A stretch of DNA of 42,022 nucleotides from Chitinophagaceae bacterium (GTDB lineage Bacteria; Bacteroidota; Bacteroidia; Chitinophagales; Chitinophagaceae), in contig CANGBH010000017.1 of the NCBI GenBank assembly GCA_947451935.1, positions 1 through 42,022 on the forward strand. Reading direction: 5' to 3'. Position numbers and translations under genes: made by a program. Each line of letters opens with the position of its first letter. Positions within the stretch are counted from its first letter, which is position 1. Positions 3,915 through 27,878 of this stretch are shown in pieces. The notes below the pieces were generated by a model. That model was not told the DNA's origin. It did not search any database and saw only the letters and a list, made by a program, of their open reading frames with translations.

Positions 3915-3957
3915 AATTCAGCTCGGCATTGGAAAATCCACTGACGAGCTGAATTTT
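3915..3957. terminator. Bidirectional hairpin terminator between convergent genes
   Basis: An 11-bp perfect stem, AATTCAGCTCG (3915-3925) with CGAGCTGAATT (3945-3955), encloses a 19-base loop. It is followed by TTTTA on the plus strand and preceded by TTAAAT on the other side. It sits between the aminopeptidase stop (3901) and the propeller gene's stop (3956), so it can serve both transcripts. Confidence 0.7.
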
Positions 3958-4789
3958 AGTCAACTAACTGATAAGCTACTACATTGTTCTTCCAAAATGT
4001 AGGAACATAAACTATCTTCTTTTTTTTATCGTAACCAATATCTGCAGAATTTATTTGCTCATTGCGTGTATCTAAAAGAAGCTTTTTAGTGCCATTAAGA
4101 TTTACATGCCAAATGGTTCCTGACCAACATGAAACAAGAAAATTCTGTTCATCAATTTGTTCTATTCCATCTGTGCCGCCTCCTAAGCCATCGGCAATAT
4201 GAATTTTTTCTTTGTTCTTACCTAGCTTACAAAATGATCCATCATCAACGAAATATAATGTCTTATCAACATACAGGACTCCGTTAGCGCCTTTCATTCC
4301 ATCAATTAATAAAGCTGGTTTGAATTTTGAAATCTGATAAATTTTATTAGCCTTAGAATCTGACACATATATATCACCTCGCTTATCAATAGTGATATCA
4401 TTGAGTTGTTGAGCACCATCGATCCCGATTTTTTTAACAACCGCAGCATGAACAATATCAACAATCAAAATGGAGTCCACGTCAGCAACAATTAAAATAT
4501 CGTCTTGAATCAACGCCATCCCCTTTGGTGAATTCAGCCCCTTCAACCAAGTTGGATTTAATACTTTACCATTTGGTGTAAGAATACCAATCGACCCCTT
4601 ACCCTCTCTGCTCCATGGATTCTTGCTGCCAATATTGGCAACAAACAATCGCTCATTTTTAGCATCGACCAATACAGACTCTGCCACTTTCAACGTTGTG
4701 TCAGAAGACCAAAGCATTGTTAAGCTTTGCGCATTTGCCAATGAATTGCTGAGTAACCCAATAATTAAAATGCTAACTATTTTTTTCAT
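3956..4789 (-). CDS. Secreted SMP-30/NHL-like beta-propeller protein
   Basis: About 277 residues from ATG 4789. That start gives the signal peptide MKKIVSILIIGLLSNSLANAQ; an upstream in-frame ATG at 4822 would overlap the preceding gene and spoil the signal. The mature part is made of repeated beta-blade phrases (NERLFVANIG, ILIVADVDSILIVD, GDIYVSDSKANKIYQI, KTLYFVDDG, IVYVPTF), typical of SMP-30/gluconolactonase/NHL six-bladed propellers. Many such proteins are lactonases or sugar/protein-binding scaffolds; I cannot tell which applies. It is the last gene of a six-gene minus-strand run, 16 bases after the FAD dehydrogenase, which suggests a role in sugar or hydroxyproline handling outside the cytoplasm. 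Direct catalytic residues were not identified. Confidence 0.75.
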   Translation of the reverse strand: MKKIVSILIIGLLSNSLANAQSLTMLWSSDTTLKVAESVLVDAKNERLFVANIGSKNPWSREGKGSIGILTPNGKVLNPTWLKGLNSPKGMALIQDDILIVADVDSILIVDIVHAAVVKKIGIDGAQQLNDITIDKRGDIYVSDSKANKIYQISKFKPALLIDGMKGANGVLYVDKTLYFVDDGSFCKLGKNKEKIHIADGLGGGTDGIEQIDEQNFLVSCWSGTIWHVNLNGTKKLLLDTRNEQINSADIGYDKKKKIVYVPTFWKNNVVAYQLVD

Positions 4790-4805
4790 AATGATTAATT
4801 TATAA

Positions 4806-6047
4806 CTAACGTTCAACATCAAATGCAGCGATATCTATACTTGTTTTTTTATGTCCTACTATTTCCTCAACTAATTTTCCACTTGCAGCAGCGAGTGATA
4901 TGCCTAGCATGGCGTGACCACCCGAGATTATTAGGTTATCATAAGCCGAGTGTCTTCCTATATAGGGAAGTCCGTCTGGACTCAATGGGCGAAGGCCGTA
5001 CCATATCTTTTCACGCTCAGGAAACTCTACTGGTAGATTAGGATAGTAATTTTTTGCAGCAGTAAAAATCGACTTTACCCTTTTCATTAGAAGAGGCGAT
5101 CCTATTCCGCTAATTTCCATAGTACCTCCCATTCTTAGGTCAGCCCCCATTGGAGTCATAGCCACCCTGTCATCTACAAGTATAGCTGGATAGTGAAGGT
5201 TTTTCTTTACATTTTCGAATGTCATACTATATCCCTTGCCTGCTTGCATTAGGATATCTATTCCAAGTTGCTTACTTACTATAGGCAACCAGGATCCCGT
5301 AGCTAACACATATTCATCAGCTCTAAAAACACCTTTGTCTGTTACTATTCCTGTAATACTTTTACTTTGTTTTTCAAAGCCTATGATGTTGGTATTTAAT
5401 GAAAATTCAACGCCATTATTTTTGAGGTATTCTGTTATGGTTGTCATCAAATCGCCTGGATGAAGATGACAATCGATTGGATACAATACCCCTCCCCTAA
5501 CATTCAATTCAACCTCAGGTTCCATAGCTTGTAGCTCCTGAAGGTTGAGCACTCGCGTATCAATATTTAATGCAGCAGCTTCTTTTGCAAGCTCAATTTC
5601 GTGATGTTCAGTAGTCAAGCTCTTATACAACATCAAACAGCCCATTTCCTTCATTCTGAAATTATCACCTAGCTCATCCCTAATTTCAGAAGTGAGGGCT
5701 CTACTGAGTTGTAGGATAGCATCTAGATGAGGGATATTACGTTCCATCGTAGACCTACCAGATCTTTTCCAAAATGTAAGGCCCCATCGAATCAAATCGA
5801 TGTTTAAGCGGGGTTTAATATAAAATGGAGAACTTGAACTCATCATCCATTTCATGCCTTTGGCAATAATTCCTGGGGAGGCAAGAGGGATAAAATGACT
5901 AGGAGAAACATATCCAGCATTTCCAAAAGAAGTGCCCGATTTTAGATCTCCTCTATCAATGATTAACACATCATGACCTGCTTTCTTTAAATAATATGCT
6001 GTACATAATCCAATTACGCCACCTCCTGCTACGACAACTCTTGACAT
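4806..6047 (-). CDS. FAD-dependent D-amino-acid dehydrogenase, probably acting on cis-4-hydroxy-D-proline
   Basis: A 413-aa DadA/DAO-type flavoprotein. The FAD dinucleotide fold is at the very N-terminus (VVVAGGGVIGLC; glycines 8, 10, 13), followed by IIDRG with the ribose-binding acidic residue. Conserved DadA/glycine-oxidase phrases are GTSFGNAGYVSPSHF near residue 40 and YGLRPLSPDGLPYIG near 350, then ISGGHAMLGISLAAASGK at the C-terminal FAD contact. No signal peptide is present, so it is cytoplasmic or membrane-associated. DadA-like enzymes oxidise D-amino acids to imino acids. Because the operon's first gene is a hydroxyproline epimerase that makes cis-4-hydroxy-D-proline, the natural assignment is D-hydroxyproline dehydrogenase giving pyrroline-4-hydroxy-2-carboxylate. 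The sequence alone would also allow D-Ala or a broad D-amino-acid substrate range. Confidence 0.85.
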   Translation of the reverse strand: MSRVVVAGGGVIGLCTAYYLKKAGHDVLIIDRGDLKSGTSFGNAGYVSPSHFIPLASPGIIAKGMKWMMSSSSPFYIKPRLNIDLIRWGLTFWKRSGRSTMERNIPHLDAILQLSRALTSEIRDELGDNFRMKEMGCLMLYKSLTTEHHEIELAKEAAALNIDTRVLNLQELQAMEPEVELNVRGGVLYPIDCHLHPGDLMTTITEYLKNNGVEFSLNTNIIGFEKQSKSITGIVTDKGVFRADEYVLATGSWLPIVSKQLGIDILMQAGKGYSMTFENVKKNLHYPAILVDDRVAMTPMGADLRMGGTMEISGIGSPLLMKRVKSIFTAAKNYYPNLPVEFPEREKIWYGLRPLSPDGLPYIGRHSAYDNLIISGGHAMLGISLAAASGKLVEEIVGHKKTSIDIAAFDVER

Positions 6048-6092
6048 GCTCTATTTTTTTAATAATAACTAAGAATGAATCGATTTGTTTAT

Positions 6093-7148
6093 TTATTTTT
6101 TTCGTGAGGTGATGCTTTTAATGAAATCAACTTCCTCTTTTTTATAAGGAGATCCATCCTTCCTAAAAACATCATGAAACCAAACGGCTGGTTCTGACCC
6201 ATCGGGGATTGGCATGCCCCATTGATATATGGTATTGCTCTTTCCTGCGACTAGACCCCAATTAATAGCGCTTACATTATATTTTTTAAATAGGGGAAGA
6301 TGTGTTTGAAATCTACTATTGCGGGTTCTTGCCATATATTCTGAGCATAATATAGGACGATCATAATTTTTTAATTTTATGATTTGATTTTCAAGTGAAC
6401 TAAGTTCCTCATAATTATGAAAAGTGATTACATCAGAATTACTTAAAATGATTTCATTTATCACTTCATTGCCATTCCACACTGCGCAAGTAAGTGGCTG
6501 AGAAGGTCTAACAAACCATGCCCACTCAAACACACGTTGCAAAAGCTCCACTGATCCATTTTCATAATCACTATTCCCTGGCTCATTATATAGATCCCAC
6601 ATTAAAATACGCTTATCGTCTTTGAAATACGAAAGAACATCTTTTACATACGCTTCAAGATATTGCCATTTCAATGGATTATCATGGACGGATATAGTCG
6701 GACTTCTAACCCACCCGCTATTATGGATTCCTGGCTTGGGGTCTGGCTGTTTACCTGGTGATGCATCAGCATTCCAGCAATCATCAAATACTGTAAATAA
6801 TATTTTTATCTTATGCTTATCCGCTATAGCAAGAAAATCATTCATTCTTTTTTTAAACCCTTGCGGATCTATCTGCCATGCGATATCATGTAAGTAAACA
6901 CGCATTACGTTCATGCCAATAGCAGAAGCCCAACCCAATTCTCTTGAAATGGTAACAGGGTCAAAGCTTTCGGCTTGCCACATTTCAAGTTGATTGATTG
7001 CTGTACTTGGGAGAAAATTACCGCCAACATACCATGGCTGCGCAGCGCCCCATTGATTTGCTTTATCCTTAGACCAGATGTTCTTTTCTTGTGAGAAAGA
7101 GGTAATCAAACTCAATCCAAAAAAAATAATCAATAAAAACTTTTTCAT
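6093..7148 (-). CDS. Secreted clan GH-A glycoside hydrolase (GH5-like)
   Basis: 351 residues with signal peptide MKKFLLIIFFGLSLITSFS. The fold is a (beta/alpha)8 barrel: MNVMRVYLHDIAW (strand 2), then IKILFTVFDDCW. The acid/base is in WDLYNEP (Glu189), and the probable nucleophile is in PILCSEYMAR (Glu270). The two glutamates on strands 4 and 7 are the clan GH-A signature. Such proteins are often labelled cellulase family or 1,4-beta-xylanase, but the substrate pocket does not match a CAZy family that I can name with confidence. It lies 38 bases after GH127 and 45 before the FAD dehydrogenase. That position suggests action on the same plant glycan, for instance an arabinosyl or galactosyl linkage. 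Substrate is inference. Confidence 0.82.
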   Translation of the reverse strand: MKKFLLIIFFGLSLITSFSQEKNIWSKDKANQWGAAQPWYVGGNFLPSTAINQLEMWQAESFDPVTISRELGWASAIGMNVMRVYLHDIAWQIDPQGFKKRMNDFLAIADKHKIKILFTVFDDCWNADASPGKQPDPKPGIHNSGWVRSPTISVHDNPLKWQYLEAYVKDVLSYFKDDKRILMWDLYNEPGNSDYENGSVELLQRVFEWAWFVRPSQPLTCAVWNGNEVINEIILSNSDVITFHNYEELSSLENQIIKLKNYDRPILCSEYMARTRNSRFQTHLPLFKKYNVSAINWGLVAGKSNTIYQWGMPIPDGSEPAVWFHDVFRKDGSPYKKEEVDFIKSITSRKK

Positions 7149-7186
7149 AAAACTAATTTAATGACTCACTTAAATATATATTTTGC

Positions 7187-9151
7187 TCAATAATTTATCT
7201 TGATGTCGTTCAATGAAATCGGCAACCAAACTTGCATTGGATTGCTTCCCCTATTACACCAACTATAATATGGAATTGCCCTGACTTTTATGCTATTCGT
7301 GTTGGCCGACAACCCATCATCAGAAATCTTTAACACAGGTAGATACGAGACCAAGCTAACTACATTTTCATTTACGATGTCCATGTTTTCAGTCGTATAA
7401 ACTGCATCTTTAGGTGACACGATATTCCAGGCTTTTCCATTATTGTCTGCCCCTTCAACGCAATAAACGAGTGGACCACGTTGCAGAGCCATACGGTTAT
7501 TGTCTAGTTTCAATTCATTCCTAGCTACCACTTTTTTTATCGTCATAGGAATTCTATATTCTACTATATCGCCATCTTTCCATTCTCTATCTACTACAGC
7601 ATATCCATCTTGATCTGTGTACGTAATTTCAACACCATTAATTAACAGAGTTGGTTTTTCTGCTTTGTCATCAAAAAATGTATACAGATCTCCGGGCGCT
7701 GGAATTCCCTTAGACCAACCAGGAATACGAAAAGCAATCGCTGTTTTGATTTTCTTTTTCATCCCAAGCACGCACTTTACATCGCCACTCCAAGGATAAT
7801 TTGTCTGCATTTTAAATTGCATCTCTCCCTTTGGAAGTGTAAAACTAGTTTCACTGCCAACAAATAAATTGACAAATATTTTATTGTCAGCATACCCATA
7901 AATAAAATTACCAAGCGAAGCAATAAGTCGAGCAATATTCGATGGACAACAAGCCGTACCGAACCACTCCTTCCGTGAATGCCTTCCATCAGAAGCTAGT
8001 GGATTGCCATAAAAGAAGTGATCACCGCTTAATGAGAGTCCATCTAATGCTCCGTTATAAAGACTGCGCTCAAGCACATCAATATATTCTGCGTTTCCTG
8101 TAAGGTTATTCATGCGTTGATTCCAAAATACCATGCCTACAGAGGCACAGGTTTCGCAATAGGCTTGTTCATTTGGCAAGTCATAGTCGCTTGAAAACCC
8201 TTCATTCGTTCCAGCTGAACCAATGCCTCCTGTGATATACATATTTCTATATACTACATCTTCCCATACCCTTCGCATGGCCTTCATATAACCTTGATCA
8301 CCTGTATAGGTGGCAACATCAGCAGCACCGGTATACAGATACATTGCTCTTACAGCATGACCAGTGATTTCTTTTTGATCCTTAACAGGCACTAGGTCTT
8401 GCACATAGCCTGTATCTTTCCAATCTGTCCAAGTATATCCAACCCCTAGCCCCTTTCCTCTTTCAGTCAATAACCAATCTGCTAACTTGAGGTATTTTTC
8501 TTTTTGAGTAGTCTTATATAATTTAACCAATGCTAATTCAAGCTCTTGGTGACCAGTAACCCAATCACGTTTTCCGGGTCCAAAAACTGAATCAAAATGA
8601 TCAGCCCAACGAATAGCTACATCAAGAAACTTTCTTTTTCCTGTTGCATCAAAATACGCCACTGCAGCCTCAATCATATGTCCCCCGATATAATCTTCAT
8701 GCATACTCATATCTTTCCAGCGATTTTCTAAGCCGGTTAGTGTGTAGTAGGTATTTAAATACCCATCAGGCTGTTGAGCTGCTGCAATTTTATCAATCCA
8801 TTCATCCGCCTTTGTCATTAATGCTTGGCTCTTATTTGTTTTAATAGCATAAGCCATCGCTTCGATTGCCTTAAATACATCTGAATCATCAAAGAAGATA
8901 CCTTCGTGCTCCTCCCCTTTCTTTCTAGCCACTTTTTCAAAATTTCGAATTCGACCAGTTTTTTCTTCTGTTTGGTAAATACATGCTTGCAATGTTTTAG
9001 TTGCCACATTATCAATCTTTGGTTTCCAAAATTCATCATTGATGGTCACCTTGGAAAAATTTACTGGATTCACTTTTACATGACTACCCTGTGCATTTAA
9101 GTTGCTACAAATCATGAAAACAAGGCAAGAAGAGAATACTTTTTTAAACAT
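7187..9151 (-). CDS. GH127 beta-L-arabinofuranosidase
   Basis: About 654 residues, secreted or periplasmic. ATG 9151 gives the signal peptide MFKKVFSSCLVFMICSNLNAQ; an upstream in-frame ATG at 9223 would overlap the preceding GH95 gene and hide the signal. This is the DUF1680/GH127 family, which removes beta-L-arabinofuranose, classically from hydroxyproline-linked arabino-oligosaccharides of extensin. The unusual zinc-thiolate active site of the family is intact: CETC (Cys332, Glu333, Cys335) and TACCPSN (Cys401, Cys402). These correspond to the Glu-x-Cys and Cys-Cys ligands of the Bifidobacterium HypBA1 enzyme, where the first Cys of the pair is the nucleophile. An (alpha/alpha)6 barrel fills residues 30-430, followed by beta-sandwich domains. 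It sits 26 bases downstream of GH95 in the operon. Rhamnogalacturonan II is another possible substrate. Confidence 0.93.
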   Translation of the reverse strand: MFKKVFSSCLVFMICSNLNAQGSHVKVNPVNFSKVTINDEFWKPKIDNVATKTLQACIYQTEEKTGRIRNFEKVARKKGEEHEGIFFDDSDVFKAIEAMAYAIKTNKSQALMTKADEWIDKIAAAQQPDGYLNTYYTLTGLENRWKDMSMHEDYIGGHMIEAAVAYFDATGKRKFLDVAIRWADHFDSVFGPGKRDWVTGHQELELALVKLYKTTQKEKYLKLADWLLTERGKGLGVGYTWTDWKDTGYVQDLVPVKDQKEITGHAVRAMYLYTGAADVATYTGDQGYMKAMRRVWEDVVYRNMYITGGIGSAGTNEGFSSDYDLPNEQAYCETCASVGMVFWNQRMNNLTGNAEYIDVLERSLYNGALDGLSLSGDHFFYGNPLASDGRHSRKEWFGTACCPSNIARLIASLGNFIYGYADNKIFVNLFVGSETSFTLPKGEMQFKMQTNYPWSGDVKCVLGMKKKIKTAIAFRIPGWSKGIPAPGDLYTFFDDKAEKPTLLINGVEITYTDQDGYAVVDREWKDGDIVEYRIPMTIKKVVARNELKLDNNRMALQRGPLVYCVEGADNNGKAWNIVSPKDAVYTTENMDIVNENVVSLVSYLPVLKISDDGLSANTNSIKVRAIPYYSWCNRGSNPMQVWLPISLNDIKINY

Positions 9152-9177
9152 GATGATGAATTTGTGGAGTAATAATA

Positions 9178-11580
9178 CTAAAGATTTTGGATGACCAGTG
9201 GTTTCATTGAATCTAGCTTCCAAGTTTTATGCTGATAACGTATCGTTTGAGTCATACCACCCAATGGTGTGATCACTGCCTTTTTGAGTTTACCATTTTC
9301 CCACGATATATCTACGGTGAAATTACCCCGGGCTTTTAATCCTTTTACATTTCCGGTTGACCAGTCAGCAGGAAGGGCTGGCAATAAAAGAATTTCTCCA
9401 TCATGACTCTGCATCAACATTTCTGCGATTCCAGATGTTGCTCCAAAATTACCATCAATTTGAAATGGTGGATGGGCATCGAATAAATTAGGATATGTTC
9501 CTCCTCCATGCATGACGATTTCAGATTTGTCGGCAGGGTAATACGATAAAATTTTTCGAATTGCATCGAACGCCATTTCCCCATTTTGCAATCTTGCCCA
9601 TAAATTAATCTTCCATGCAATGGACCAACCTGTTCCATTATTCGTTCTCAATTCTAATGATTTTTGTACCGCCTTAGCAAGTGTTGGATTTTTATTCATT
9701 GTAATTGATGAACCCGGATACAACCCAAATAGATGAGACACGTGCCGATGGTTTGGATCTTGATCTTCCCAATCATAATACCATTCTTGAAGATTTCCTT
9801 TTTTACCTATAGCATATGGATGCAGGTTTGCTAATGCAGATTCAATTTTTGAAGCAAATTCCTCGTCATGTTTAAGGATTTTCTGCGCCTCCAGTACATC
9901 AGAAAATAGCTCTCGAATCATTGACAAATCAGCTGTTCCTCCATAAAAAACATTTCCACGAAATTCTTTATCGGTAACAAATCCATTTTCTGGAGACGTT
10001 GATGGAGATGTTATCAGTAGTCCTTTTTTATCCTTTACAAGAAACTGCAAACAAAACAGAGCTGCATTTTTCATAACTGAATAGGCTTCATTTTTCAGAA
10101 ACCCAAGATCTCTGGTAAACAAAAAATGTTCCCAGAGATGTGTACTCATCCAGCTTCCTCCCATCGTCCAATTTGCCCAGACAGGATCACCGTTACCAAA
10201 ATCGCCAACAGGATTTGTGATAGCCCAAATATCTGAATTATGATGTGCTACCCAACCATCTAATCCATAGAATGATTTTGCGGTAACAGCACCTGTTACA
10301 CTCATATTTTTAATCAGGTTCAACATGGGCTCATGAAACTCTGATAGGTTAGTAGATTCTACAGGCCAATAATTCATCTCTGTGTTGATATTAATGGTAT
10401 AGTTACTACTCCAAGGTGGACGAACCTGCTCGTTCCAAATACCTTGAAGATTGATAGGGGCACCTGAGGTTCGAGATGAGCTGATCATCATATATCGACC
10501 ATATTGAAAATAAAGCGAAATCAATGAGTTGTCCTTCTCTCCTGAAGTGAATTTTTTAAGCCGTTCATCGGTAGGCAAAGTACTATTTTGTGATGAGCCG
10601 ATATTTAATGAAACCCGATTCATGTATTGGCCAAAATCAGCCAAGTGTAAGGCTAAATACTTTTCAAAAGAATCAGCGTTTAGTTGATTAAACGGCTGTT
10701 CACAAATCATCACTTCATTTTTTCCATCAACAGCTGGATCTTTATCAAATCCATTAAAACTTGTTGCTAAGGATACCGCTAAAATAATTTGAGTAGCACC
10801 AGAAACAGTTAGGCTTGAATCACTACTATTGATTTGCCCATCAGTTTTCAATACTCTAGCATCAGCCATAAATCTCATTGCATGAGCGGGATCAAATTGA
10901 ACAGCATTTTCAATATCCCCTCTATAATTAGGCTCGGCCAGTGAAGGCGCTATCCCATTCATTTTAAGTCTACTATTAAACGGCCTGTCTACAAGAGTCT
11001 CAGCTTGTGTTTGATGAAGTAATAAACTTTCGAGTTTAAGAGCAACGTTAGTTTTATTCTTTCCTTTTGATGTTAACCGAATAAACATCAACTGTTGCGG
11101 ATAGGAAACAAAATATTCACGCGTATAGGATGTTTTATCTGCAACTAAATCAACCCTAGCAATACCAGTACCAATATTCAAACTTCGTTTATAACTAGAA
11201 ACACTTGGTAAATTAAAGTCAAGGTAGAGGTTTCCTAAGGGAGCGTAAGAGTCGGAAAATTTCCCCTGTACAAAATGAAGCAAACTATCAGCTGCTTGAT
11301 AATCTTCATGCGACAAGGCCTCTCTGATTAATGGTAAGTACTTTTTTGCTTCGGGATTCATGTTGGGGTCTACTGGATGACCAGACCAAAGTGTTGCCTC
11401 ATTGAGTGAAATACGGTCTTCCTTTATGCCCCCATATACCATTGCCCCAATTCTGCCATTTCCGATTGGCAAAGCTTCTTCAAAATGGCGCGCAGGATTT
11501 TTATACCACATAATATTAGTATCCTGTGCATTGGCAAAAAGTTGCAATAGAGATCCTAAGACAATACAAATAATTCTCAT
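9178..11580 (-). CDS. GH95 alpha-L-fucosidase / alpha-L-galactosidase
   Basis: 800 residues from ATG 11580, which begins the signal peptide MRIICIVLGSLLQLFANAQ. A longer frame extends back inside the preceding epimerase gene and is not a credible start. The N-terminal domain opens with the family hallmark ARHFEEALPIGNGRIGAMVYGG. The (alpha/alpha)6 catalytic domain has PPWSSNYTININTEMNYW (Asn397, Asn399, Asn403), STSPENGF (Glu531) and FQIDGNFGATSGIAE (Asp709). These align in order with the Asn/Asn, Glu and Asp active-site residues known for Bifidobacterium AfcA. The enzymes invert and act on alpha-1,2-L-fucose, or on alpha-L-galactose in plant-directed members; the sequence does not let me choose. 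It starts 10 bases after the epimerase stop, so translation is probably coupled. Confidence 0.93.
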   Translation of the reverse strand: MRIICIVLGSLLQLFANAQDTNIMWYKNPARHFEEALPIGNGRIGAMVYGGIKEDRISLNEATLWSGHPVDPNMNPEAKKYLPLIREALSHEDYQAADSLLHFVQGKFSDSYAPLGNLYLDFNLPSVSSYKRSLNIGTGIARVDLVADKTSYTREYFVSYPQQLMFIRLTSKGKNKTNVALKLESLLLHQTQAETLVDRPFNSRLKMNGIAPSLAEPNYRGDIENAVQFDPAHAMRFMADARVLKTDGQINSSDSSLTVSGATQIILAVSLATSFNGFDKDPAVDGKNEVMICEQPFNQLNADSFEKYLALHLADFGQYMNRVSLNIGSSQNSTLPTDERLKKFTSGEKDNSLISLYFQYGRYMMISSSRTSGAPINLQGIWNEQVRPPWSSNYTININTEMNYWPVESTNLSEFHEPMLNLIKNMSVTGAVTAKSFYGLDGWVAHHNSDIWAITNPVGDFGNGDPVWANWTMGGSWMSTHLWEHFLFTRDLGFLKNEAYSVMKNAALFCLQFLVKDKKGLLITSPSTSPENGFVTDKEFRGNVFYGGTADLSMIRELFSDVLEAQKILKHDEEFASKIESALANLHPYAIGKKGNLQEWYYDWEDQDPNHRHVSHLFGLYPGSSITMNKNPTLAKAVQKSLELRTNNGTGWSIAWKINLWARLQNGEMAFDAIRKILSYYPADKSEIVMHGGGTYPNLFDAHPPFQIDGNFGATSGIAEMLMQSHDGEILLLPALPADWSTGNVKGLKARGNFTVDISWENGKLKKAVITPLGGMTQTIRYQHKTWKLDSMKPLVIQNL

Positions 11581-11590
11581 GTATACTATT

Positions 11591-12643
11591 TTATAATACT
11601 TGAAATCCATGTGCATATGGATCATCTTCAGGTTGAATAGAAATAATATTATGTCCGTAAATCTTAGCCCAACCTTCGATGGAAGGACGCATGGAAGGTT
11701 TTCCGTGGAAGATGGATTCCTCTTCGATCCTGCCAATAAATTTGCTGCCAATAATACTTTCATGAATAAATTCATCTCCCTTTTTGAGCATCCCCTTCGC
11801 ATACCATTGTGCCATCCGAGCACTTGTTCCAGTTCCACAAGGAGAACGATCAATTGCCTTATCGCCATAAAAGACGGCATTTCGTGCTGTTGAAGATTTA
11901 TCAATCACTGCCCCACACCATAAAATATGACTACATGAGTTAATCGTTGGATCTTCCGGATGTACAAACTGATAAAGTGCATTGATATTCTTTCTCAATT
12001 GCCTAGCCCACCCAATTAATTGATCAGCTGAATATTGTTCAAGACCTTTGAAATTTTCTTGCACATCTACAATGGCATAAAAATTTCCACCATATGATAC
12101 ATCCACTTTTAATTCACCTAATTCCGGACAATTCACTCTGAGGTCTTGTTGATCTAAATAAGCGGGTACATTAACAAGCCTAACATTTTTTACTTTCCCA
12201 TTTTCTAATGAATATGAAATTTTGATTAATCCAGCAGGAGCTTCCATATTAACAAATCCCTGTTTCTTAGGGACGATTAACCCACTTTCAATACCTGCTG
12301 TGATTGTACCGATTGTTCCATGTCCACACATTGGAAGACAGCCGCTTGTTTCAATGAAAAGAACAGCCACATCATTTTGAGGATCATGTGGTGGGTAAAG
12401 AATACTTCCACTCATCATATCATGTCCTCTTGGTTCAAACATCAATCCTTTTCGTATCCAATCATATTCCCTTAAGAAGTGTTGGCGTTTTTCACTCATA
12501 TTATTCCCTTCAAGGGCTGGGCCACCGGATACAACTAGCCTTACCGGATTGCCACATGTATGAGCATCTATACAATGAAATATATGTCCGCCAAGATTAT
12601 GTTTAACTTCGTCTGGAGTTAGAGATAATGCATTTGTTACCAT
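11591..12643 (-). CDS. 4-hydroxyproline epimerase (proline racemase family)
   Basis: 350 residues, cytoplasmic. The enzyme interconverts trans-4-hydroxy-L-proline and cis-4-hydroxy-D-proline using two cysteines as general bases. Both are present: Cys106 in MCGHGTIG and Cys269 in DRSPCGTGTSA. A Thr in place of the second Cys would indicate a trans-3-hydroxyproline dehydratase, so the epimerase or racemase activity is favoured. The N-terminal phrase FHCIDAHTCGNPVRLV and the Glu/Arg segment EPRGHDMMSGSI are family standards and lean towards hydroxyproline over proline. It is the first gene of the six-gene operon, ahead of three glycosidases and the FAD dehydrogenase that would oxidise its D-product. 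The later steps, a deaminase and an alpha-ketoglutarate semialdehyde dehydrogenase, are not in this window. Confidence 0.9.
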   Translation of the reverse strand: MVTNALSLTPDEVKHNLGGHIFHCIDAHTCGNPVRLVVSGGPALEGNNMSEKRQHFLREYDWIRKGLMFEPRGHDMMSGSILYPPHDPQNDVAVLFIETSGCLPMCGHGTIGTITAGIESGLIVPKKQGFVNMEAPAGLIKISYSLENGKVKNVRLVNVPAYLDQQDLRVNCPELGELKVDVSYGGNFYAIVDVQENFKGLEQYSADQLIGWARQLRKNINALYQFVHPEDPTINSCSHILWCGAVIDKSSTARNAVFYGDKAIDRSPCGTGTSARMAQWYAKGMLKKGDEFIHESIIGSKFIGRIEEESIFHGKPSMRPSIEGWAKIYGHNIISIQPEDDPYAHGFQVL

Positions 12644-17293: not shown

Positions 17294-18955
17294 TTAGAAC
17301 AACAGTATATTTAAAATTATGGTAATGATAAGTAAGATGATGCCAATTGGCGCAGCCTTTAGGTACCATTTTTGTTCAGGTGCTTGTACTTTTTCTGTTA
17401 GTGAATAAACAAGTCCTTTCAACTCGATGTCACTCTTTGGTTTTGTAACGAGACTAATTAAAATCGTTGTAGTAAAATTGGTTAACCAAGAGAATGCGGC
17501 AACAATGAATGCTTGCCCCATTCCACTTTTTATTTCAAACATAGGAGAAATCCATCCCCCCTTTCCTTCTGCAATTGTTAACCCATGGGTTATAGTCGCG
17601 GCAAGTGTGCCCGCCATTAGCCCCCAGAAAGCACCATGCCCGGTAGTTCGTTTCCAAAACATACCAAGCAAGAACGTGGCAAATAAAGGCCCATTCACAA
17701 AACTAAACACTAGTTGAAGAAAGTCATTTATGTTATTATAGCTTTTAGCTATATACGCTGTCATGATAGAAAGTAAAATTCCAATCAGCGTAATCATTTT
17801 ACCAACATATAGATAGTGGTTGTCTGATTTGTTTTTAACAAAATAGGATTGATAGATATCATAGGTGAAAACTGAATTGAATGCTGTAACATTTCCAGCC
17901 ATTCCACTCATAAAAGAGGCTATCAATGCAGTTATACCTACGCCAAGAAGTCCACTAGGATAATAGTGTGCAATTAAAGAAGGCAATGTCATGGTATAAT
18001 CCAACGCCCCTTTAGCATCAAGCGGTATACTATATCCTCTTGACTGAAGAGCAGGTTGCATTAAGGTAATGGCTACAACACCTGGAAGCACAACAATCAA
18101 TGGCATAAACATTTTTGGGATGGCTGCGAGAATTGGAGTACGCTGAGCAGCACTCATATTTTTTGCAATCATTGCGCGTTGAATTACCAAGAAATCAGTA
18201 CACCAGTATCCAAAAGACATAACAAAACCCAACCCAAAAAGCATGGAAATAAAATTGATTCCCATTGGATTTGATTCCGCATTTCCCATGTATTTCCAAG
18301 CATGTGTAAGTTCTGGTTGGAGGTTAGCTCTAATTGAAGACCACCCACCTGCATCATGCAAAGAGACAATGACCAATGGAGACAATCCGATTACAATCAA
18401 GAAAAACTGAAGCACTTCATTATAAACTGCACTAGTAAGTCCTCCCATGAATGTATATACCATTACCACCCCAGCAGCTGCCCAAATGCACACATCAAAG
18501 TTCCAATGAAGTATCACTTCAAGAAGTTTAGCTAGAGCATACAATGAAATACCGGATGAAAAGATTGTCATAGCGGCAAAAGTAAGTGCATTCAACCCTC
18601 TTGTTTTTTCATCAAATCTCATTGATAGGTATTCAGGAACGCTTCGTGCCTTACTGCCATAATAAAAAGGCATCATAAACACACCTAAAAAGATCATAGC
18701 GAATATTGCACCAACCCAATAAAAGTGAACAGTCATGATACCATATTTAGCTCCAGAAGCGACCATACCTAATACCTCTTGAGCACCAAGGTTTGCCGAT
18801 ATAAAGGCAAGGCTAGTAATCCAAAGTGGTATGCTTCGATTACTATTCAGGAAGTCATTGCTAGACTTAATCCTTTTTTTTATGATAAACCCTACAGCAA
18901 TTACAAAAATGAAATAAATGATAATGATTAAATAATCGGCTAGATGAAGTGTCAT
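17294..18955 (-). CDS. Sodium/solute symporter (SSS family), possible myo-inositol transporter
   Basis: 553 residues with about 13-14 membrane segments from residue 4 to the C-terminus. SSS-family phrases include WITSLAFISANLGAQEVLGM near residue 50, RSVPEYLSMRFD near 105, and the long GLTSAVYNEVLQFFLI near 175. Members import sugars, sugar acids, inositol, proline or vitamins with sodium. The gene diverges from myo-inositol oxygenase across a 155-base gap, so inositol is the most economical substrate; uronates or another polyol are alternatives. It heads a minus-strand run with a 57-aa membrane protein, a flavin reductase and an SGNH hydrolase. Exact substrate cannot be read from the sequence. 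Confidence 0.88.
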   Translation of the reverse strand: MTLHLADYLIIIIYFIFVIAVGFIIKKRIKSSNDFLNSNRSIPLWITSLAFISANLGAQEVLGMVASGAKYGIMTVHFYWVGAIFAMIFLGVFMMPFYYGSKARSVPEYLSMRFDEKTRGLNALTFAAMTIFSSGISLYALAKLLEVILHWNFDVCIWAAAGVVMVYTFMGGLTSAVYNEVLQFFLIVIGLSPLVIVSLHDAGGWSSIRANLQPELTHAWKYMGNAESNPMGINFISMLFGLGFVMSFGYWCTDFLVIQRAMIAKNMSAAQRTPILAAIPKMFMPLIVVLPGVVAITLMQPALQSRGYSIPLDAKGALDYTMTLPSLIAHYYPSGLLGVGITALIASFMSGMAGNVTAFNSVFTYDIYQSYFVKNKSDNHYLYVGKMITLIGILLSIMTAYIAKSYNNINDFLQLVFSFVNGPLFATFLLGMFWKRTTGHGAFWGLMAGTLAATITHGLTIAEGKGGWISPMFEIKSGMGQAFIVAAFSWLTNFTTTILISLVTKPKSDIELKGLVYSLTEKVQAPEQKWYLKAAPIGIILLIITIILNILLF

Positions 18956-19110
18956 GGCAATCGTTAGTGTGAGTTAATGGGATTTAAAATACACATTATT
19001 TCACTAAAACGGGTAAAATTTCAACGAAAACGGTTTATATATGCACTATTTCCAAAATAGTTTTTAACTTGTACTGTCAATTATACCAAGGCAATAAAAA
19101 ACAACATATT

Positions 19111-19995
19111 ATGCAACCGAATAATCTTAGTTCAAAGGAAATAAATCCTTTAGGAAGTTTGGATGAATGGGAAGAGGATTTGCTAGAGCGTTACCCTGAT
19201 CCTGAAAAAATTGCCACGGCAAAATCTACGGAAGCTTATAGAAATTATGAGGAGCCTGCACGTGATACAGTAAAAGAATTTTATAGACTGAACCATACTT
19301 ATCAGACATATGATTTTGTCATGCAAAAGCGTGAGCAATACCTTGCTTTTGACAAAAAAGAAATGGCGATATGGGATGCCTTTGAATTTTTAAATGAGTT
19401 GGTTGATGATTCTGATCCAGACACCGATTTAGATCAGTTTCAGCATTTACTTCAGACATCAGAGGCCATTAGACGTGATGGACATCCTGATTGGATGGTG
19501 CTTGTTGGATTGATGCATGATATGGGAAAAGTACTTTGTTTATTTGGTGAACCACAATGGGCAGTTGTTGGTGACACGTTCCCTGTTGGCTGTGCTTATT
19601 CAGATAAAATTATTTACTCAGAATTCTTTAGTGCCAACCCAGATTTTACAAACCCTGCTTACAATACAAAATTTGGTATTTACGAACCGAACTGTGGTCT
19701 TCGAAATGTTCACATGAGCTGGGGACATGATGAATACATCTATCAAATGATGAAAGATCATCTTCCAGAACCTGCATTGTATATGTTAAGATACCATTCC
19801 TTCTATGCCTGGCATCGTGAAGGAGCATACGAACATCTTTTGGATGATCATGACAGGGAAATGTTGAAATGGGTTAAGCTATTCAACCCATATGACCTCT
19901 ATTCAAAATGTCCAGTACAACCTGATTGGAAAGAACTAAAATCATACTATACAGAATTGATTGAAAAATATCTTCCAAAAACATTGAAGTTTTAA
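19111..19995 (+). CDS. myo-Inositol oxygenase (eukaryotic-type MIOX)
   Basis: 294 residues from ATG 19111; a TTG 14 codons earlier is unlikely. The enzyme cleaves myo-inositol with O2 to D-glucuronate at a mixed-valent di-iron site. All six iron ligands known from the mammalian enzyme are present in matching order and spacing: His112 (FQHLLQT), His136 and Asp137 (GLMHDMGK), His206 (WGHDEY), His229 (RYHSFYAWH) and Asp262 (NPYDLYSKC). The active-site phrases [28 protein letters not shown] and the C-terminal [11 protein letters not shown] also match animal MIOX closely. It is not the distant relative PhnZ, despite the phosphonate genes nearby. It ends in a strong hairpin terminator and diverges from a sodium symporter. 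Confidence 0.95.
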
Positions 19996-22493: not shown

Positions 22494-23609
22494 TCAAGAA
22501 ACAATCTCCTCAGCAAGTCCAAATGATAATGTCATACCAGCTCCGCCTAATCCATTAACAATAGTGACGCCATCCTGAGGCCTTATGACCAACTCTGTTT
22601 CACCGCTTTTCATTTTTGAATACACTCCGTTCCAAGTTTCAATAATTTTTTCATTCTTGAATTGAGCAAATTTATTAAGGTATTTTAAAATCAAGTCATT
22701 GACTAAGGCCTTGTCCCATGGGTCAGGAGTTAGGCCATATTCGTGAGAATCTCCGACGGTTAATTCTCCGTTTTGATTTTGAGAAACCATAACATGGATT
22801 CCCCATTTTATATATTCAGGAAAATCAAGATGAAGCCTGGCTTTTAGCTGAGCATGCGTAGGCGCTATTGAAAAACTGCTATAATTAATGAGTGATAAAC
22901 CCGCGCACAACATTGGTCCAATTCTAGTGTTTTCATCCTGTGCGGCCATTCTCATCATCTGAAGCTTACACTTAGTAATATTTTCATTGGCAAATTGTTC
23001 AGGGAATAATGTTTCAAAATCAGAACCAGAGCAAACGAAAATCTCATCTGCGCTGTACGATTTTGATCTAGCAAAAACAGTGTCGCGTGTGATTGATGTT
23101 GCTGTAGTATTCCAAATAAACTGCACACCATACCGTTCAGAAAGGAACTCAGGCATCTTATAAATAGCTTCTCTAGGATCCACGATAATTTCATCCTTAC
23201 TAAAAAGACTACCTCGTAAATTATATGAAACAACAGGGTAAGAAGTTGAACAAGTTTCTTCGCTATTCAATAATGTGTATCCCCTATGTTTGTATAACTC
23301 AGCTAATTCAGAAAGCACCTGCCATTCGTCATCAGCATAGGCGAGTTGCAATGAGCCCACTTCATCATGCCAAATTTTTGCATCAACACATAACGACTTC
23401 CATATTCGACGAGAATTCATTGCCCGTTCAAATAAGATCCCATCTGGCTGGGCAATTGGAAGCACCATTCCGAAATTTCGAATAGATGCGCCAACAGATT
23501 TAGACGATTTTTCAATAACTGTTACAACATAACCTCTAATCGCTAAGGCACGTGCAACAGCCAATCCAACAATACCAGCACCAATAACTATGGCTGATTT
23601 TTTAATCAT
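22494..23609 (-). CDS. PbfD-like FAD-dependent oxidoreductase of phosphonate catabolism
   Basis: 371 residues of the DAO superfamily. The FAD fold begins at once (SAIVIGAGIVGLAVARALA; glycines 10, 12, 15), then VIEKSSKSVGASIRNFGMV. The RNFGM phrase and the closing GLGGAGMTLSFGLAEEIV are the pattern of the TIGR03364 family, now called PbfD. Members occur in bacterial phosphonate clusters and oxidise 2-aminoethylphosphonate or its N-methyl form to phosphonoacetaldehyde. The gene overlaps the upstream transporter gene by four bases (ATGA). It lies beside phnA, phnY and phnW, which supports this substrate range. The family assignment is strong; the exact amine substrate is inference. Confidence 0.85.
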   Translation of the reverse strand: MIKKSAIVIGAGIVGLAVARALAIRGYVVTVIEKSSKSVGASIRNFGMVLPIAQPDGILFERAMNSRRIWKSLCVDAKIWHDEVGSLQLAYADDEWQVLSELAELYKHRGYTLLNSEETCSTSYPVVSYNLRGSLFSKDEIIVDPREAIYKMPEFLSERYGVQFIWNTTATSITRDTVFARSKSYSADEIFVCSGSDFETLFPEQFANENITKCKLQMMRMAAQDENTRIGPMLCAGLSLINYSSFSIAPTHAQLKARLHLDFPEYIKWGIHVMVSQNQNGELTVGDSHEYGLTPDPWDKALVNDLILKYLNKFAQFKNEKIIETWNGVYSKMKSGETELVIRPQDGVTIVNGLGGAGMTLSFGLAEEIVS

Positions 23610-24892
23610 AAATTGGACTTTAGCAATTTGTATTTATGATTGAAATATATAAACGAAAGTATCGTAGCAGATATACCAATGACAGAAACAATGACTACTC
23701 CTTGTGAGTAGACATCTGACCATTTAACATGTACATCAAAAAATTCTTTGCCAAGCATTACCAATACACTTCCTAAGTATCCAAATGAATCAGCAATATA
23801 AAGCAAGAACCCTACGTTTCCTTTTACCTTAAATGTTGCTATCAATCGTTCAAAATAAATACACTGAAAAGGGATATAGCCCATATATAGGCCCAAACTA
23901 ACCAATTGCATCCAAAGTCCACCTTCGATTTTGTGATTAACAAACAACCAAGATGATATGCCGGCTAAAAGAAATCCTAAAATGATGATGCCGTGAATTA
24001 CTCTAAAGGCCCTAATGTTTTTTCTGATTAAAACGAGCAAACCAATCATTATTAAGATAACTACAGATGTTCTTGTTTCTGTTTTAGTAAAAATTGAATA
24101 ATCTTTTCCATAACCAAGTTCAATCCAAATATTAGACATGTAATTATCTCTGATGTCACGCATGATACTAAGTAATGTATATGTAATTGTGGCTGCAAGA
24201 ATTCCTACGGTAAACAGCTTTAGGAATTTTTTGCGGTCGTCGTTAGACATTGGAAGTCTTTCAGTTCGAGCTTGAATATCAGCTTCAGATGGCTTTGGGA
24301 TTCGTTCCAATAGAAAAATGAATAACGCTAAGGGTATTGCAAAAATAAGTCCTGCAACAAATGGCATCCATTTTTCAGTAACATGCATATCAATAAGCAA
24401 CCATTTTGCGACAGACCTTGTGAATCCTCCCGCGAAAATGAAGCTGATAGCCAAAACAGAACCAATAAAATCAGTAGCTCGTCTACCTTCTACATAGCTA
24501 AACACGATTCCCCACAAAAAGCCAAGCGGAAATCCGTTGATAAATAAAAAAATCATGCCATAGGGAGCTGGAACTAATGCGAATAGAAACAACGCACCCC
24601 ATGATATACTCATGAGAATTAACGCTGTTTTCCATCTTCCAAATCGCTTCAACTCAGAGATGAACTTAATCCCATAAAACTTACTAAACATATAGCCAAT
24701 CACTTGGCTAATAATTAATAAGGTTTGATATGATATATTCCAATACTTCACGCCATCAAACGTTGCCACAGTAAATGGTTTTCGATATGCATAAACAGAT
24801 GCATATGCAAGAAAAGCAATGGCTGCAGTATATACAGGAAGTAAAATATCTTTCGAGAAGGATTTTTTTGAGTCTACTAATAATTCTGGCAT
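23606..24892 (-). CDS. MFS-type transporter, candidate aminoethylphosphonate importer
   Basis: 428 residues with about 12 hydrophobic helices and a cytoplasmic loop (about 195-225) between the two halves. It has the MFS/UhpC-like opening LAYASVYAYRKPF (residues about 29-41), then INGFPLGFLWGIVFSYVEGRR near 137. Its C-terminal half contains LGLYMGYIPFQCIYFERLIA, which I link with a Bacteroidota family labelled DUF5690; that link needs checking. Its stop overlaps the start of the PbfD-like gene, so the two are co-translated, and it diverges from phnA across 203 bases. No ABC transporter for phosphonates is present in the window, so this is the obvious uptake candidate for the pathway. The substrate is inferred from context only. 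Confidence 0.8.
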   Translation of the reverse strand: MPELLVDSKKSFSKDILLPVYTAAIAFLAYASVYAYRKPFTVATFDGVKYWNISYQTLLIISQVIGYMFSKFYGIKFISELKRFGRWKTALILMSISWGALFLFALVPAPYGMIFLFINGFPLGFLWGIVFSYVEGRRATDFIGSVLAISFIFAGGFTRSVAKWLLIDMHVTEKWMPFVAGLIFAIPLALFIFLLERIPKPSEADIQARTERLPMSNDDRKKFLKLFTVGILAATITYTLLSIMRDIRDNYMSNIWIELGYGKDYSIFTKTETRTSVVILIMIGLLVLIRKNIRAFRVIHGIIILGFLLAGISSWLFVNHKIEGGLWMQLVSLGLYMGYIPFQCIYFERLIATFKVKGNVGFLLYIADSFGYLGSVLVMLGKEFFDVHVKWSDVYSQGVVIVSVIGISATILSFIYFNHKYKLLKSNL

Positions 24893-25045
24893 AATAAAAA
24901 ATGATAAAAGAGATGATTCAAGTCAGCAATTTATGGATAATCTCTTAAAATGCGGAAATACACTACATGGACTAGACCCTATTAGCTAAGAATTACGATT
25001 TACTCACTCTTACAATTTTATACAAATGGGATGGAATAAGTATCT

Positions 25046-25053
25046 TACTTTTG
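25046..25053 (+). promoter_or_regulatory. -7 element of the phnA promoter
   Basis: TACTTTTG matches the Bacteroidota -7 consensus TAnnTTTG. Transcription would start near 25060, leaving a leader of about 35 bases before ATG 25096. This argues against the in-frame TTG at 25051 as the start codon. No good -33 TTG is seen at the expected distance, which would fit an activated or regulated promoter. Confidence 0.5.
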
Positions 25054-25095
25054 CACCATTCTAAATCGTTAATTGAGCAAAAAAAGCGAGATTCA

Positions 25096-26340
25096 ATGGC
25101 AAACATTTCCACCACCCCATTTAGTATTAATGACAGAACGTACACTCCATCCGCAAATCCGATTGTGGTAATATGTATTGACGGATCCGCAGATGAATAC
25201 CTAGACACTACCTTAGCGTTCAGAAGGATGCCTAATCTGGAAAAAATCGCTAAGTCTGGATATAGAGGCATGGTGAGAGGCGCATTGCCTTCTTTTACAA
25301 ATGTCAATAATTCTTCAATAGTTACTGGAGTTACCCCAGCTGTACATGGCATTTCTGGAAACTTCTTTTATGAAGAAGCGAAAGACCGTGAAGTGATGAT
25401 GAATTCTTCAGAATACCTCAGGGCAGAAACCATTCTTGCAGCTGCTGCCAATGCAGGTAGGAAAGTGGCAGTTGTTACTGCAAAGGAGAAGTTACGAGAT
25501 ATACTTTCATTTAAATTAAATGGGATTGCTTTCTCTGCTGAAAAAGCCAACCAAGCTACAATAGAAACTCATGGAATAGATAACCTAGAAGCAATAGTAG
25601 GTCATCCCACACCGCCTATATATAGTCCGGATGCCAGTCTATTTGTTCTTCAGTCAGGAGTTGCTTTAATAGAAAAAGGAATTGCCGACTTTCTTTATCT
25701 ATCGCTAACTGATTATATGCAACACACCTACGACCCTTATGCAGAAGAGTCACTTGCATTTTATGAAGCAATGGATGCAGAAATTGGAAAGCTAATCGCT
25801 CTTGGGGCTATTGTTGGGGCAACGGCAGATCATGGCATGAATGCAAAAATTCATGAGGATGGCACACCCAATGTATTGTTTGTAGAAGACCTTTTGGAAG
25901 AAAAATTCGGAAACCATTTTCGCGTAATATGTCCAATCACTGATCCATACGTAAAACACCATGGAGCCCTAGGCTCATATATTGTGATACATGTGGCTGA
26001 CAAATCGATTATCTCCGATGTCAAAAATTGGTTAATGGGGCTAGATGGTATTACTGAAGTGTATGATAAATCAACAGCAGTTAAAGTGTTAGAACAACCA
26101 GAAGACCGCATTGGCGATCTCGTTGTACTTTCTGGTCGAAATGTAGTGGTAGGTAGACGTCCTCAGTACCATGATTTGTCAGCATTAGACGGAACACTTC
26201 GCTCGCATGGTGGACGTTACGAAGAAATGGTGCCCATGATTATTTCCCATCCACTTAACGCGGTGTATTTAAGAAAGGCTGCAGGCGACCCGCGCAACTT
26301 TGATATTTTTGACTTCACTATCAATGGAACAAACGGCTAG
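25096..26340 (+). CDS. phnA: Phosphonoacetate hydrolase
   Basis: 414 residues from ATG 25096, a zinc-dependent member of the alkaline phosphatase superfamily. It hydrolyses phosphonoacetate to acetate and phosphate, the C-P bond breaking step of this route. Every residue known from the Sinorhizobium enzyme is found: Asp29 in CIDGSADE and the nucleophile Thr68 in LPSFTNVNNSS (identical numbering with this start), then Asp206/His210 in LTDYMQHTYDP, Asp245/His246 in TADHGMNAK and His371 in LRSHGGRYEE. The protein has no signal peptide and is cytoplasmic. It is followed at 83 bases by phnY on the same strand and diverges from the transporter gene. Phosphonoacetate hydrolase is much rarer in bacteria than phosphonatase, so the route used here is the oxidative one. 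Confidence 0.94.
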   Translation: MANISTTPFSINDRTYTPSANPIVVICIDGSADEYLDTTLAFRRMPNLEKIAKSGYRGMVRGALPSFTNVNNSSIVTGVTPAVHGISGNFFYEEAKDREVMMNSSEYLRAETILAAAANAGRKVAVVTAKEKLRDILSFKLNGIAFSAEKANQATIETHGIDNLEAIVGHPTPPIYSPDASLFVLQSGVALIEKGIADFLYLSLTDYMQHTYDPYAEESLAFYEAMDAEIGKLIALGAIVGATADHGMNAKIHEDGTPNVLFVEDLLEEKFGNHFRVICPITDPYVKHHGALGSYIVIHVADKSIISDVKNWLMGLDGITEVYDKSTAVKVLEQPEDRIGDLVVLSGRNVVVGRRPQYHDLSALDGTLRSHGGRYEEMVPMIISHPLNAVYLRKAAGDPRNFDIFDFTINGTNG

Positions 26341-26423
26341 TAACTCCACTTGTTTCAACAGAAGAAAACCCTGTTTAAAAAGCTTATATAATTATACTAA
26401 TAGTTTGATTTAAAAAATACATT

Positions 26424-27848: not shown

Positions 27849-27854
27849 TAAAAA

Positions 27855-27878
27855 GAAAACCGACAATATCGGTTTAGA
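27855..27878. terminator. Short bidirectional hairpin between convergent phnY and phnW
   Basis: AAACCGA (27857-27863) pairs with TCGGTTT (27869-27875) around a 5-base loop. A-rich sequence lies on the left and a T-rich stretch with one interruption on the right. It lies 8 bases after the phnY stop and overlaps the phnW stop codon, so it may end both transcripts. The stem is short. Confidence 0.55.

Follow-up and report, generated by a model that had tools for sequence, protein, structure and literature searches.

The closest described relatives of the locus reported here act on hydroxyproline (Hyp) or on the sugars attached to it. The trans-4-hydroxyproline catabolic cluster encodes an epimerase, a D-Hyp dehydrogenase, a deaminase and an alpha-ketoglutaric semialdehyde (alpha-KGSA) dehydrogenase (PMC7883544). 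The HypBA1-HypBA2(-HypAA) system of Bifidobacterium (PMC7263609, PMC6085000) and the XeHypBA1/BA2/AA system of Xanthomonas (PMC6085000) release sugar with an enzyme of glycoside hydrolase (GH) family 127 and its GH121 and GH43 partners. Characterized GH127 enzymes of both genera free arabinose from arabinosylated Hyp (Ara-Hyp), in line with the preliminary description of the present locus, which named Hyp-linked arabinans of extensin as a GH127 substrate, and XeHypBA1 prefers this substrate; the word ‘epimerase' is absent from the available text of that paper (PMC6085000). A collagen cluster of Colwellia BB5 likewise combines, in a single gene cluster, degradation of a Hyp-rich polymer with an epimerase and a D-Hyp dehydrogenase, but it is gammaproteobacterial and employs an M9 collagenase, with no glycosidase mentioned in the text available (PMC7883544). 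In Latescibacteria, GH127 and GH95 enzymes are likewise predicted to act on algal Hyp-rich glycoproteins, although that prediction comes from a genome-wide inventory whose available text mentions neither a Hyp epimerase nor an operon (PMC4454575). Here, we describe an operon of a Chitinophagaceae bacterium (assembly GCA_947451935.1) that interleaves glycosidases predicted to be secreted with Hyp-catabolic enzymes; it lies on contig CANGBH010000017.1, a stretch of 42,022 nucleotides analysed whole and referred to below as the window.

The operon shares an epimerase and an enzyme of the DAO family with the trans-4-hydroxyproline cluster, and deaminase-like and aldehyde dehydrogenase (ALDH) genes adjoin these in many relatives. 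It differs in having three glycosidases, predicted to be secreted, between the epimerase and the FAD enzyme, and in that the lower-pathway genes lie elsewhere in the window's nearest relatives. With the HypBA1 systems it has the GH127 family in common, but Hyp-catabolic enzymes take the place of GH121 and GH43. Secreted glycosidases are clustered as in polysaccharide utilisation loci of Bacteroidota, without the SusC/SusD pair. The coupling is a variation on the known Hyp catabolic cluster, with glycosidases added, and its precedents exist in pieces (PMC6085000, PMC7883544, PMC4454575). To call it a new kind of glycoprotein utilisation locus, as had been proposed, is too strong, since a cluster of protease and Hyp-catabolic genes has already been described for collagen (PMC7883544). 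Among the matches listed by full-text searches, judged by titles and the starts of abstracts and covering few subscription journals, no publication describes a coupling of glycosidases to Hyp catabolism, and the terms ‘glycosid' and ‘arabin' do not occur in the main text of a study of racemase-superfamily gene neighbourhoods (PMC4113996). We favour, at a probability of about 0.58, the reading that this is a Hyp-catabolism operon that has recruited secreted or periplasmic exo-glycosidases, whose main task would be to free the amino acid of its cover, with sugar supply not the purpose.

Architecture of the operon

The source assembly (186 contigs totalling 2.56 Mb, completeness 95.9%) contains the window as one entire contig, C17. 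Positions 3956-12643 hold six open genes on the minus strand in the order epimerase, GH95, GH127, GH5/GH2-like hydrolase, DAO-family FAD enzyme and NHL propeller, with intergenic gaps of 10, 26, 38, 45 and 16 bases that agree with those first described. The features are as follows.

11591..12643, minus strand: 4-hydroxyproline 2-epimerase, 350 residues, first gene (PF05544, PRK13971, both cysteines)
9178..11580, minus strand: GH95 alpha-L-fucosidase or alpha-L-galactosidase, 800 residues, signal peptide (Pfam GH95 domains)
7187..9151, minus strand: GH127, probable beta-L-arabinofuranosidase, 654 residues, signal peptide (Pfam GH127 cat/M/C)
6093..7148, minus strand: unclassified GH5/GH2-like (beta/alpha)-barrel hydrolase, 351 residues, signal peptide (weak PF02836, AlphaFold/Foldseek)
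4806..6047, minus strand: DadA-like FAD dehydrogenase, probable cis-4-hydroxy-D-proline dehydrogenase, 413 residues (PF01266, position)
3956..4789, minus strand: six-bladed-type NHL/SMP-30-like beta-propeller, 277 residues, signal peptide (PF01436, AlphaFold, Foldseek)
3915..3955, minus strand: hairpin immediately downstream of the final gene, in a convergent intergenic region (RNA folding against shuffles)

Gaps are computed from the ATG starts that include signal peptides (GH95 at 11580, GH127 at 9151, NHL propeller at 4789). The GH127 start was read by eye, and an alternative six codons later would change its gap to 44; the start at 9151 fits because the resulting 654 residues equal the length of a 95%-identical homologue. 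Signal peptides, judged by eye without SignalP, are predicted on the GH95, GH127, GH5-like and propeller proteins and on neither the epimerase nor the FAD enzyme, which suggests that glycan removal would be extracytoplasmic and amino-acid catabolism intracellular. The six genes are presumably co-transcribed. The hairpin that follows them (-21.9 kcal/mol, z -3.98, 0 of 200 shuffles equally stable), beyond which lies a convergent M1 peptidase gene, is a possible transcript end; it has no T-run and is absent from the terminator-like sites of a terminator scan. The combined sigma-70 and terminator scan returned fewer sites than the shuffle average and is hence uninformative.

Profile searches of the window's own genome give a single match each for Pro_racemase, PF07944 and GH95, all in the operon; these single matches and the conserved gene order confirm that the arrangement exceeds chance. 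The expected absence of SusC/SusD holds for SusD, which has no match on the operon contig and 12 on other contigs of this genome; the SusC family was not searched.

Conservation of the glycosidase-hydroxyproline linkage

The linkage between GH127 and the Hyp enzymes is real and conserved. Among 119 relative genomes, 57 contain an epimerase match and 56 a GH127 match. When GH127 rows at 55% identity or more are considered, 30 of 41 have an epimerase match no more than 10 kb away on the same contig; seven are farther away or on another contig, and four belong to genomes with no epimerase match. Two of the seven (G036 and G008) are unscorable, because their contigs stop within the gene that follows the epimerase. 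The tally comprises 73 rows, two more rows at 55% identity or more having been added to reach 41, and omits rows under 34% identity and short partial rows (some at 34-50%); several omitted rows at 24-31% identity are also near an epimerase and are GH146-like where scanned. An epimerase match is present in 34 of 38 genomes with a close GH127 and in 23 of the remaining 81 (p 1.9e-10 by a Fisher test that ignores kinship). The 57 epimerase genomes include G072 and G110, whose matches reach only 28% and 35% identity and which both lack a close deaminase.

Gene order is conserved as well: in 24 of the 32 distinct loci holding all three genes, GH127 is flanked by epimerase on one side and FAD enzyme on the other, all in the same orientation. 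This set includes the window, three loci from genomes whose GH127 is about 43% identical and four of Mucilaginibacter type; genes of the relatives were called as longest ORFs, some of which may overlap or have starts placed too far upstream. In a phylogeny of 63 proteins, GH127 and GH146-like, the window GH127 belongs to a supported set of 38 rows, outside which fall the GH127s of Mucilaginibacter-type (38-40% identity) and Ilyomonas-type (40-43%) loci, and the GH146-like proteins stand apart.

A broader sample was obtained by retrieving named loci with the epimerase (the best 80 of 593, 29 of them with a flank shorter than 8 kb). At distances of up to 8 kb from the epimerase, the FAD-enzyme cluster occurs in 64 of the 80, DHDPS-family proteins in 55, ALDH in 50 and an AraC-type gene, so labelled from its sequence, in 21. 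Glycosidases of six kinds, picked after inspection of the loci and without a base rate, are near 28 of the 80, and GH127 or GH146-like enzymes near 21. Mucilaginibacter-type loci (L141, L146, L149, L155) carry GH127 and a Melibiase_2 (GH27-type) gene upstream of deaminase, ALDH, epimerase and FAD enzyme, and some loci encode a protein with an alpha-L-arabinofuranosidase C-terminal domain. In other Bacteroidota, GH146-like enzymes, GH51-like enzymes or GH127 with a GH27-like enzyme adjoin the same cluster; the labels GH146, GH51 and GH27 are those we take to correspond to the Pfam domains. That differing glycosidases stand beside the same cluster suggests repeated assembly.

Could the linkage reflect chance or gene order inherited within one family, without functional meaning? 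Most linked GH127s do fall in one clade, largely one family; within Chitinophagaceae the association weakens (34 of 38 against 19 of 34 genomes, Fisher p only 0.0026, kinship again ignored), and the genomes do not amount to independent samples. Against descent alone, GH127 persists while flanking genes vary among loci, GH127, GH146-like, GH51-like and GH27-like enzymes are combined differently in other genera, and GH127s at 34-46% identity are within 10 kb of an epimerase in just 3 of 34 rows. This explanation is very improbable.

The hydroxyproline enzymes and the lower pathway

The epimerase matches PF05544 (417.8 bits) and exceeds the cut-off of the NCBIfam 4-hydroxyproline epimerase model PRK13971 (572.5 against 376). 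It remains below the cut-offs of two further hydroxyproline-epimerase models (200.5 against 450, 158.9 against 442), of trans-3-hydroxyproline dehydratase models (250.9 against 540, 207.7 against 550) and of a model for proline racemase (295.7 against 556). The solved structures closest to it carry proline racemase annotations. Both cysteines pointed out beforehand, Cys106 and Cys269, are retained and presumably catalytic. The FAD enzyme matches PF01266 (DAO, 204.5 bits) and scores under the cut-off of PRK00711 (269.4 against 383), as it does for all 25 listed of 38 matched NCBIfam models; its nearest solved relatives are glycine oxidases. Its proposed role as a D-Hyp dehydrogenase thus fits its family and gene position and finds no backing in NCBIfam scores or structural neighbours, for which reasons its substrate is assigned from context, and it is probably a cis-4-hydroxy-D-proline dehydrogenase.

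The core cluster matches the known Hyp route in outline, with enzyme roles as named in PMC7883544. A close DHDPS-like deaminase (at least 54% identity) is found in 51 of the 57 genomes with an epimerase match and in 2 of the 62 others. Structures nearest to the deaminase-like protein are of the DHDPS family and include 3na8, which we take to be the deaminase of the Pseudomonas Hyp cluster; those nearest to the cluster ALDH are 3v4c and 1eyy. Neither gene attains an NCBIfam cut-off, and gene context suggests that the ALDH is an alpha-KGSA dehydrogenase.

These findings bear on the possibility that the substrates of epimerase and FAD enzyme are proline or other D-amino acids, with the glycosidases as unrelated passengers. 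The two cysteines are common to proline racemases, and the racemase and glycine-oxidase annotations of the nearest structures, together with the low NCBIfam scores of the FAD enzyme, would suit it. The contrast between the PRK13971 and proline racemase scores and the co-presence of the deaminase, with an ALDH in the same cluster, speak the other way and make this very improbable.

Contrary to the idea that one transcript encodes the complete pathway, deaminase and semialdehyde dehydrogenase lie elsewhere in the window's nearest relatives. In many congeners the pair sits between a sigma-factor gene and a fatty-acid hydroxylase gene. These two genes adjoin with nothing between them in the window's own genome, G036 and G017; at the same site G037 lacks the pair and the sigma-factor gene too. 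Deaminase (61-62% identity) and ALDH occur together elsewhere in G036, G037 and G038, the ALDH being full-length in G036 and G038 and present in G037 as two fragments, each on its own contig. Of the ALDH, the window's own assembly has only the last 105 residues, where contig C179 ends, and a deaminase was found neither in the operon nor in the rest of the assembly, whose three DHDPS matches are at best 26-28% identical to the cluster gene. That the clade of the window has a broken lower Hyp pathway was considered and rejected, given the pair in G036, G037 and G038 and the fragment at the contig end, and the pathway is presumably present in this genome also; G017 and G039 still look devoid of both genes. 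The ALDH encoded in the window at 26424-27848 was considered as the Hyp dehydrogenase and rejected; it exceeds the cut-off for phosphonoacetaldehyde dehydrogenase instead.

A small YCII-domain protein is encoded between epimerase and GH127 in some loci (L151:1169-1459, L180:2513-2806), and in G036, G037 and the window's own genome its gene follows the unlinked ALDH; from its placement at both sites, it may belong to the Hyp pathway.

The glycosidases and the propeller

GH127 comprises the three Pfam domains cat, M and C, and its nearest solved structures are 6ex6 (508 bits), which we take to be BT3674, 4qjy (482) and 3wkw (341). Glu317, Glu333, Cys335, Cys401 and Cys402 (numbered from the Met at 9151) are all present, in agreement with the zinc-thiolate ligands first reported, and correspond to what we assume, after HypBA1, to be the Glu/Cys zinc-thiolate site. 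The enzyme is probably a beta-L-arabinofuranosidase; assignment as an aceric acid hydrolase was rejected (NF049879, only 415 bits against a cut-off of 950).

GH95 contains three Pfam domains, with 2rdy, 8zbv, 4ufc and 7kmq as nearest solved structures. The catalytic residues claimed for it are present as Asn397, Asn399, Glu531 and Asp709; they are given in part in PMC4491172 and are otherwise our assumption. At a disputed Thr/His position it carries Thr, a residue common to L-galactosidase and L-fucosidases (PMC4491172, PMC8245568), which rules out this position as a guide and leaves the choice between fucose and L-galactose unreadable from the active site.

The sole Pfam match of the GH5-like protein is a weak one to PF02836 (Glyco_hydro_2_C). 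NCBIfam gave no matches, and a PDB sequence search was unconvincing, its best hit being a repeated weak match that was set aside. The AlphaFold model is a (beta/alpha)-barrel with GH5 mannanases and GH2 glucuronidases as nearest Foldseek matches (TM about 0.5-0.6), which inform on fold class only, given a pLDDT of 75.4. Glu189 and Glu270, presumed catalytic, are invariant in 10 sequences, among many invariant columns. Homologues occur in 16 epimerase loci, all retrieved through the epimerase or its neighbourhood. The NHL propeller matches PF01436 (26.6 bits, cut-off 20) and is modelled at pLDDT 90.1; its best Foldseek match is Cj1041c, followed by NHL and DFPase/SMP-30-type propellers.

Sugar harvest or amino-acid unmasking

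The main competing explanation is that the glycosidases harvest L-sugars from arabinogalactan side chains, arabinan or pectin and leave the Hyp glycan untouched, the transcript being shared since both foods come in cell-wall debris. BT3674, introduced above, helps to degrade larch arabinogalactan (PMC10850190), and GH95 enzymes are active on xyloglucan and xylan (PMC8245568, PMC4491172). In G011 (100% complete), moreover, GH127 and the propeller are kept at the site (L185, G011:C98) without GH95 or FAD enzyme there and without an epimerase match, a close deaminase or a close dehydrogenase in the genome, suggesting that GH127 is useful apart from Hyp catabolism in that organism. AraA is present in 9 of 29 operon genomes. 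The window's own genome, however, combines one GH127 and one GH95 with no AraA match and no SusD on the operon contig (other arabinose routes were not searched), GH127 stands between both Hyp enzymes in 24 of 32 loci, and the same cluster gains different glycosidases in different lineages. AraA was not found in 20 of the 29 operon genomes, 15 of these 20 being at least 90% complete, so that the sugar is possibly waste there and the enzymes possibly expose the amino acid. The suggestion that the operon also exploits the released sugar is unsupported, and L-sugar harvest as the function of the glycosidases is unlikely.

Amino-acid unmasking would proceed as follows. Hyp or short Hyp-peptides would derive from plant or algal Hyp-rich glycoproteins, GH95 and the GH5-like enzyme would trim other caps and GH127 would remove beta-linked L-arabinofuranose; given the activity of GH127 enzymes of Xanthomonas and Bifidobacterium on Ara-Hyp (PMC6085000), a secreted GH127 could yield free Hyp for the epimerase. 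Free trans-4-hydroxy-L-proline would then enter the cell, for which the sodium/solute symporter gene at 17294-18955 provides a candidate transporter only. The epimerase would convert it to cis-4-hydroxy-D-proline, the FAD enzyme would oxidize the latter, and unlinked deaminase and alpha-KGSA dehydrogenase would complete the route to alpha-ketoglutarate. In extensins, serine bears alpha-galactose and Hyp bears beta-1,2-arabinofuranose (PMC8012813), glycans that sets of GH127 and GH27-like enzymes would match, and the title of a reference in PMC10850190 presents a GH146 enzyme as the final one in stripping Hyp-rich glycoproteins completely of oligoarabinofuranosides. As a substrate, extensin is indistinguishable here from algal or arabinogalactan glycoproteins.

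Several observations weigh against amino-acid unmasking. The six operon genes, which were the only ones searched in this respect, include neither GH121 nor GH43, the partners in known Hyp-arabinan systems. Among operon bearers, G017 (100% complete) and G039 (84%) are without a close deaminase and a close dehydrogenase, and G023 (89%) without a close deaminase. Besides G011, GH127s of 62-66% identity occur in G047, G056 and G003 (60% complete) with no epimerase match, and in G048 the two genes are far apart. Only 28 of the 80 named epimerase loci have any of the six glycosidase kinds nearby, GH127 also contains 3,6-anhydro-D-galactosidases, and Bacteroides GH127 genes are found with GH95 in other loci (PMC5698469). 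The AraA-bearing operon genomes and the glycine-oxidase relatives of the FAD enzyme point in the same direction.

Neighbouring genes

A fatty-acid-hydroxylase-family gene (PF04116, 12748-14007) is divergent to the epimerase, and its cluster recurs within 8 kb in 26 of the 80 named loci. Farther upstream, 17294-19995 holds the symporter and myo-inositol oxygenase genes, whose clusters occur in 13 and 6 compared loci, respectively (window and duplicate records counted). A probable 2-aminoethylphosphonate degradation cluster occupies 22494-28983 and encodes an HpnW-type FAD oxidoreductase, a DUF5690 protein, phosphonoacetate hydrolase PhnA, phosphonoacetaldehyde dehydrogenase and PhnW transaminase; all exceed an NCBIfam cut-off except the DUF5690 protein.

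Implications

In the papers cited here, the interest of Hyp-arabinan systems was the arabinose that they set free, and that of the Hyp cluster in PMC7883544 was collagen. Should the unmasking of Hyp be the function of this operon, it would constitute a bacterial route from glycosylated plant or algal cell-wall protein to alpha-ketoglutarate, would hint at how arabinosylated Hyp gets recycled and would provide a genomic marker for seeking the process in other environments. It would also single out the GH5-like hydrolase as an enzyme of interest. A bolder and doubtful extension is that a dedicated ‘amino-acid de-capping' system, unmasking Hyp as a carbon and nitrogen source, has evolved recurrently, with the GH5-like protein founding a family of Hyp-O-glycan hydrolases. 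Already on the plainer unmasking reading, the question of who eats extensin-type protein would become answerable by growth and enzyme work.

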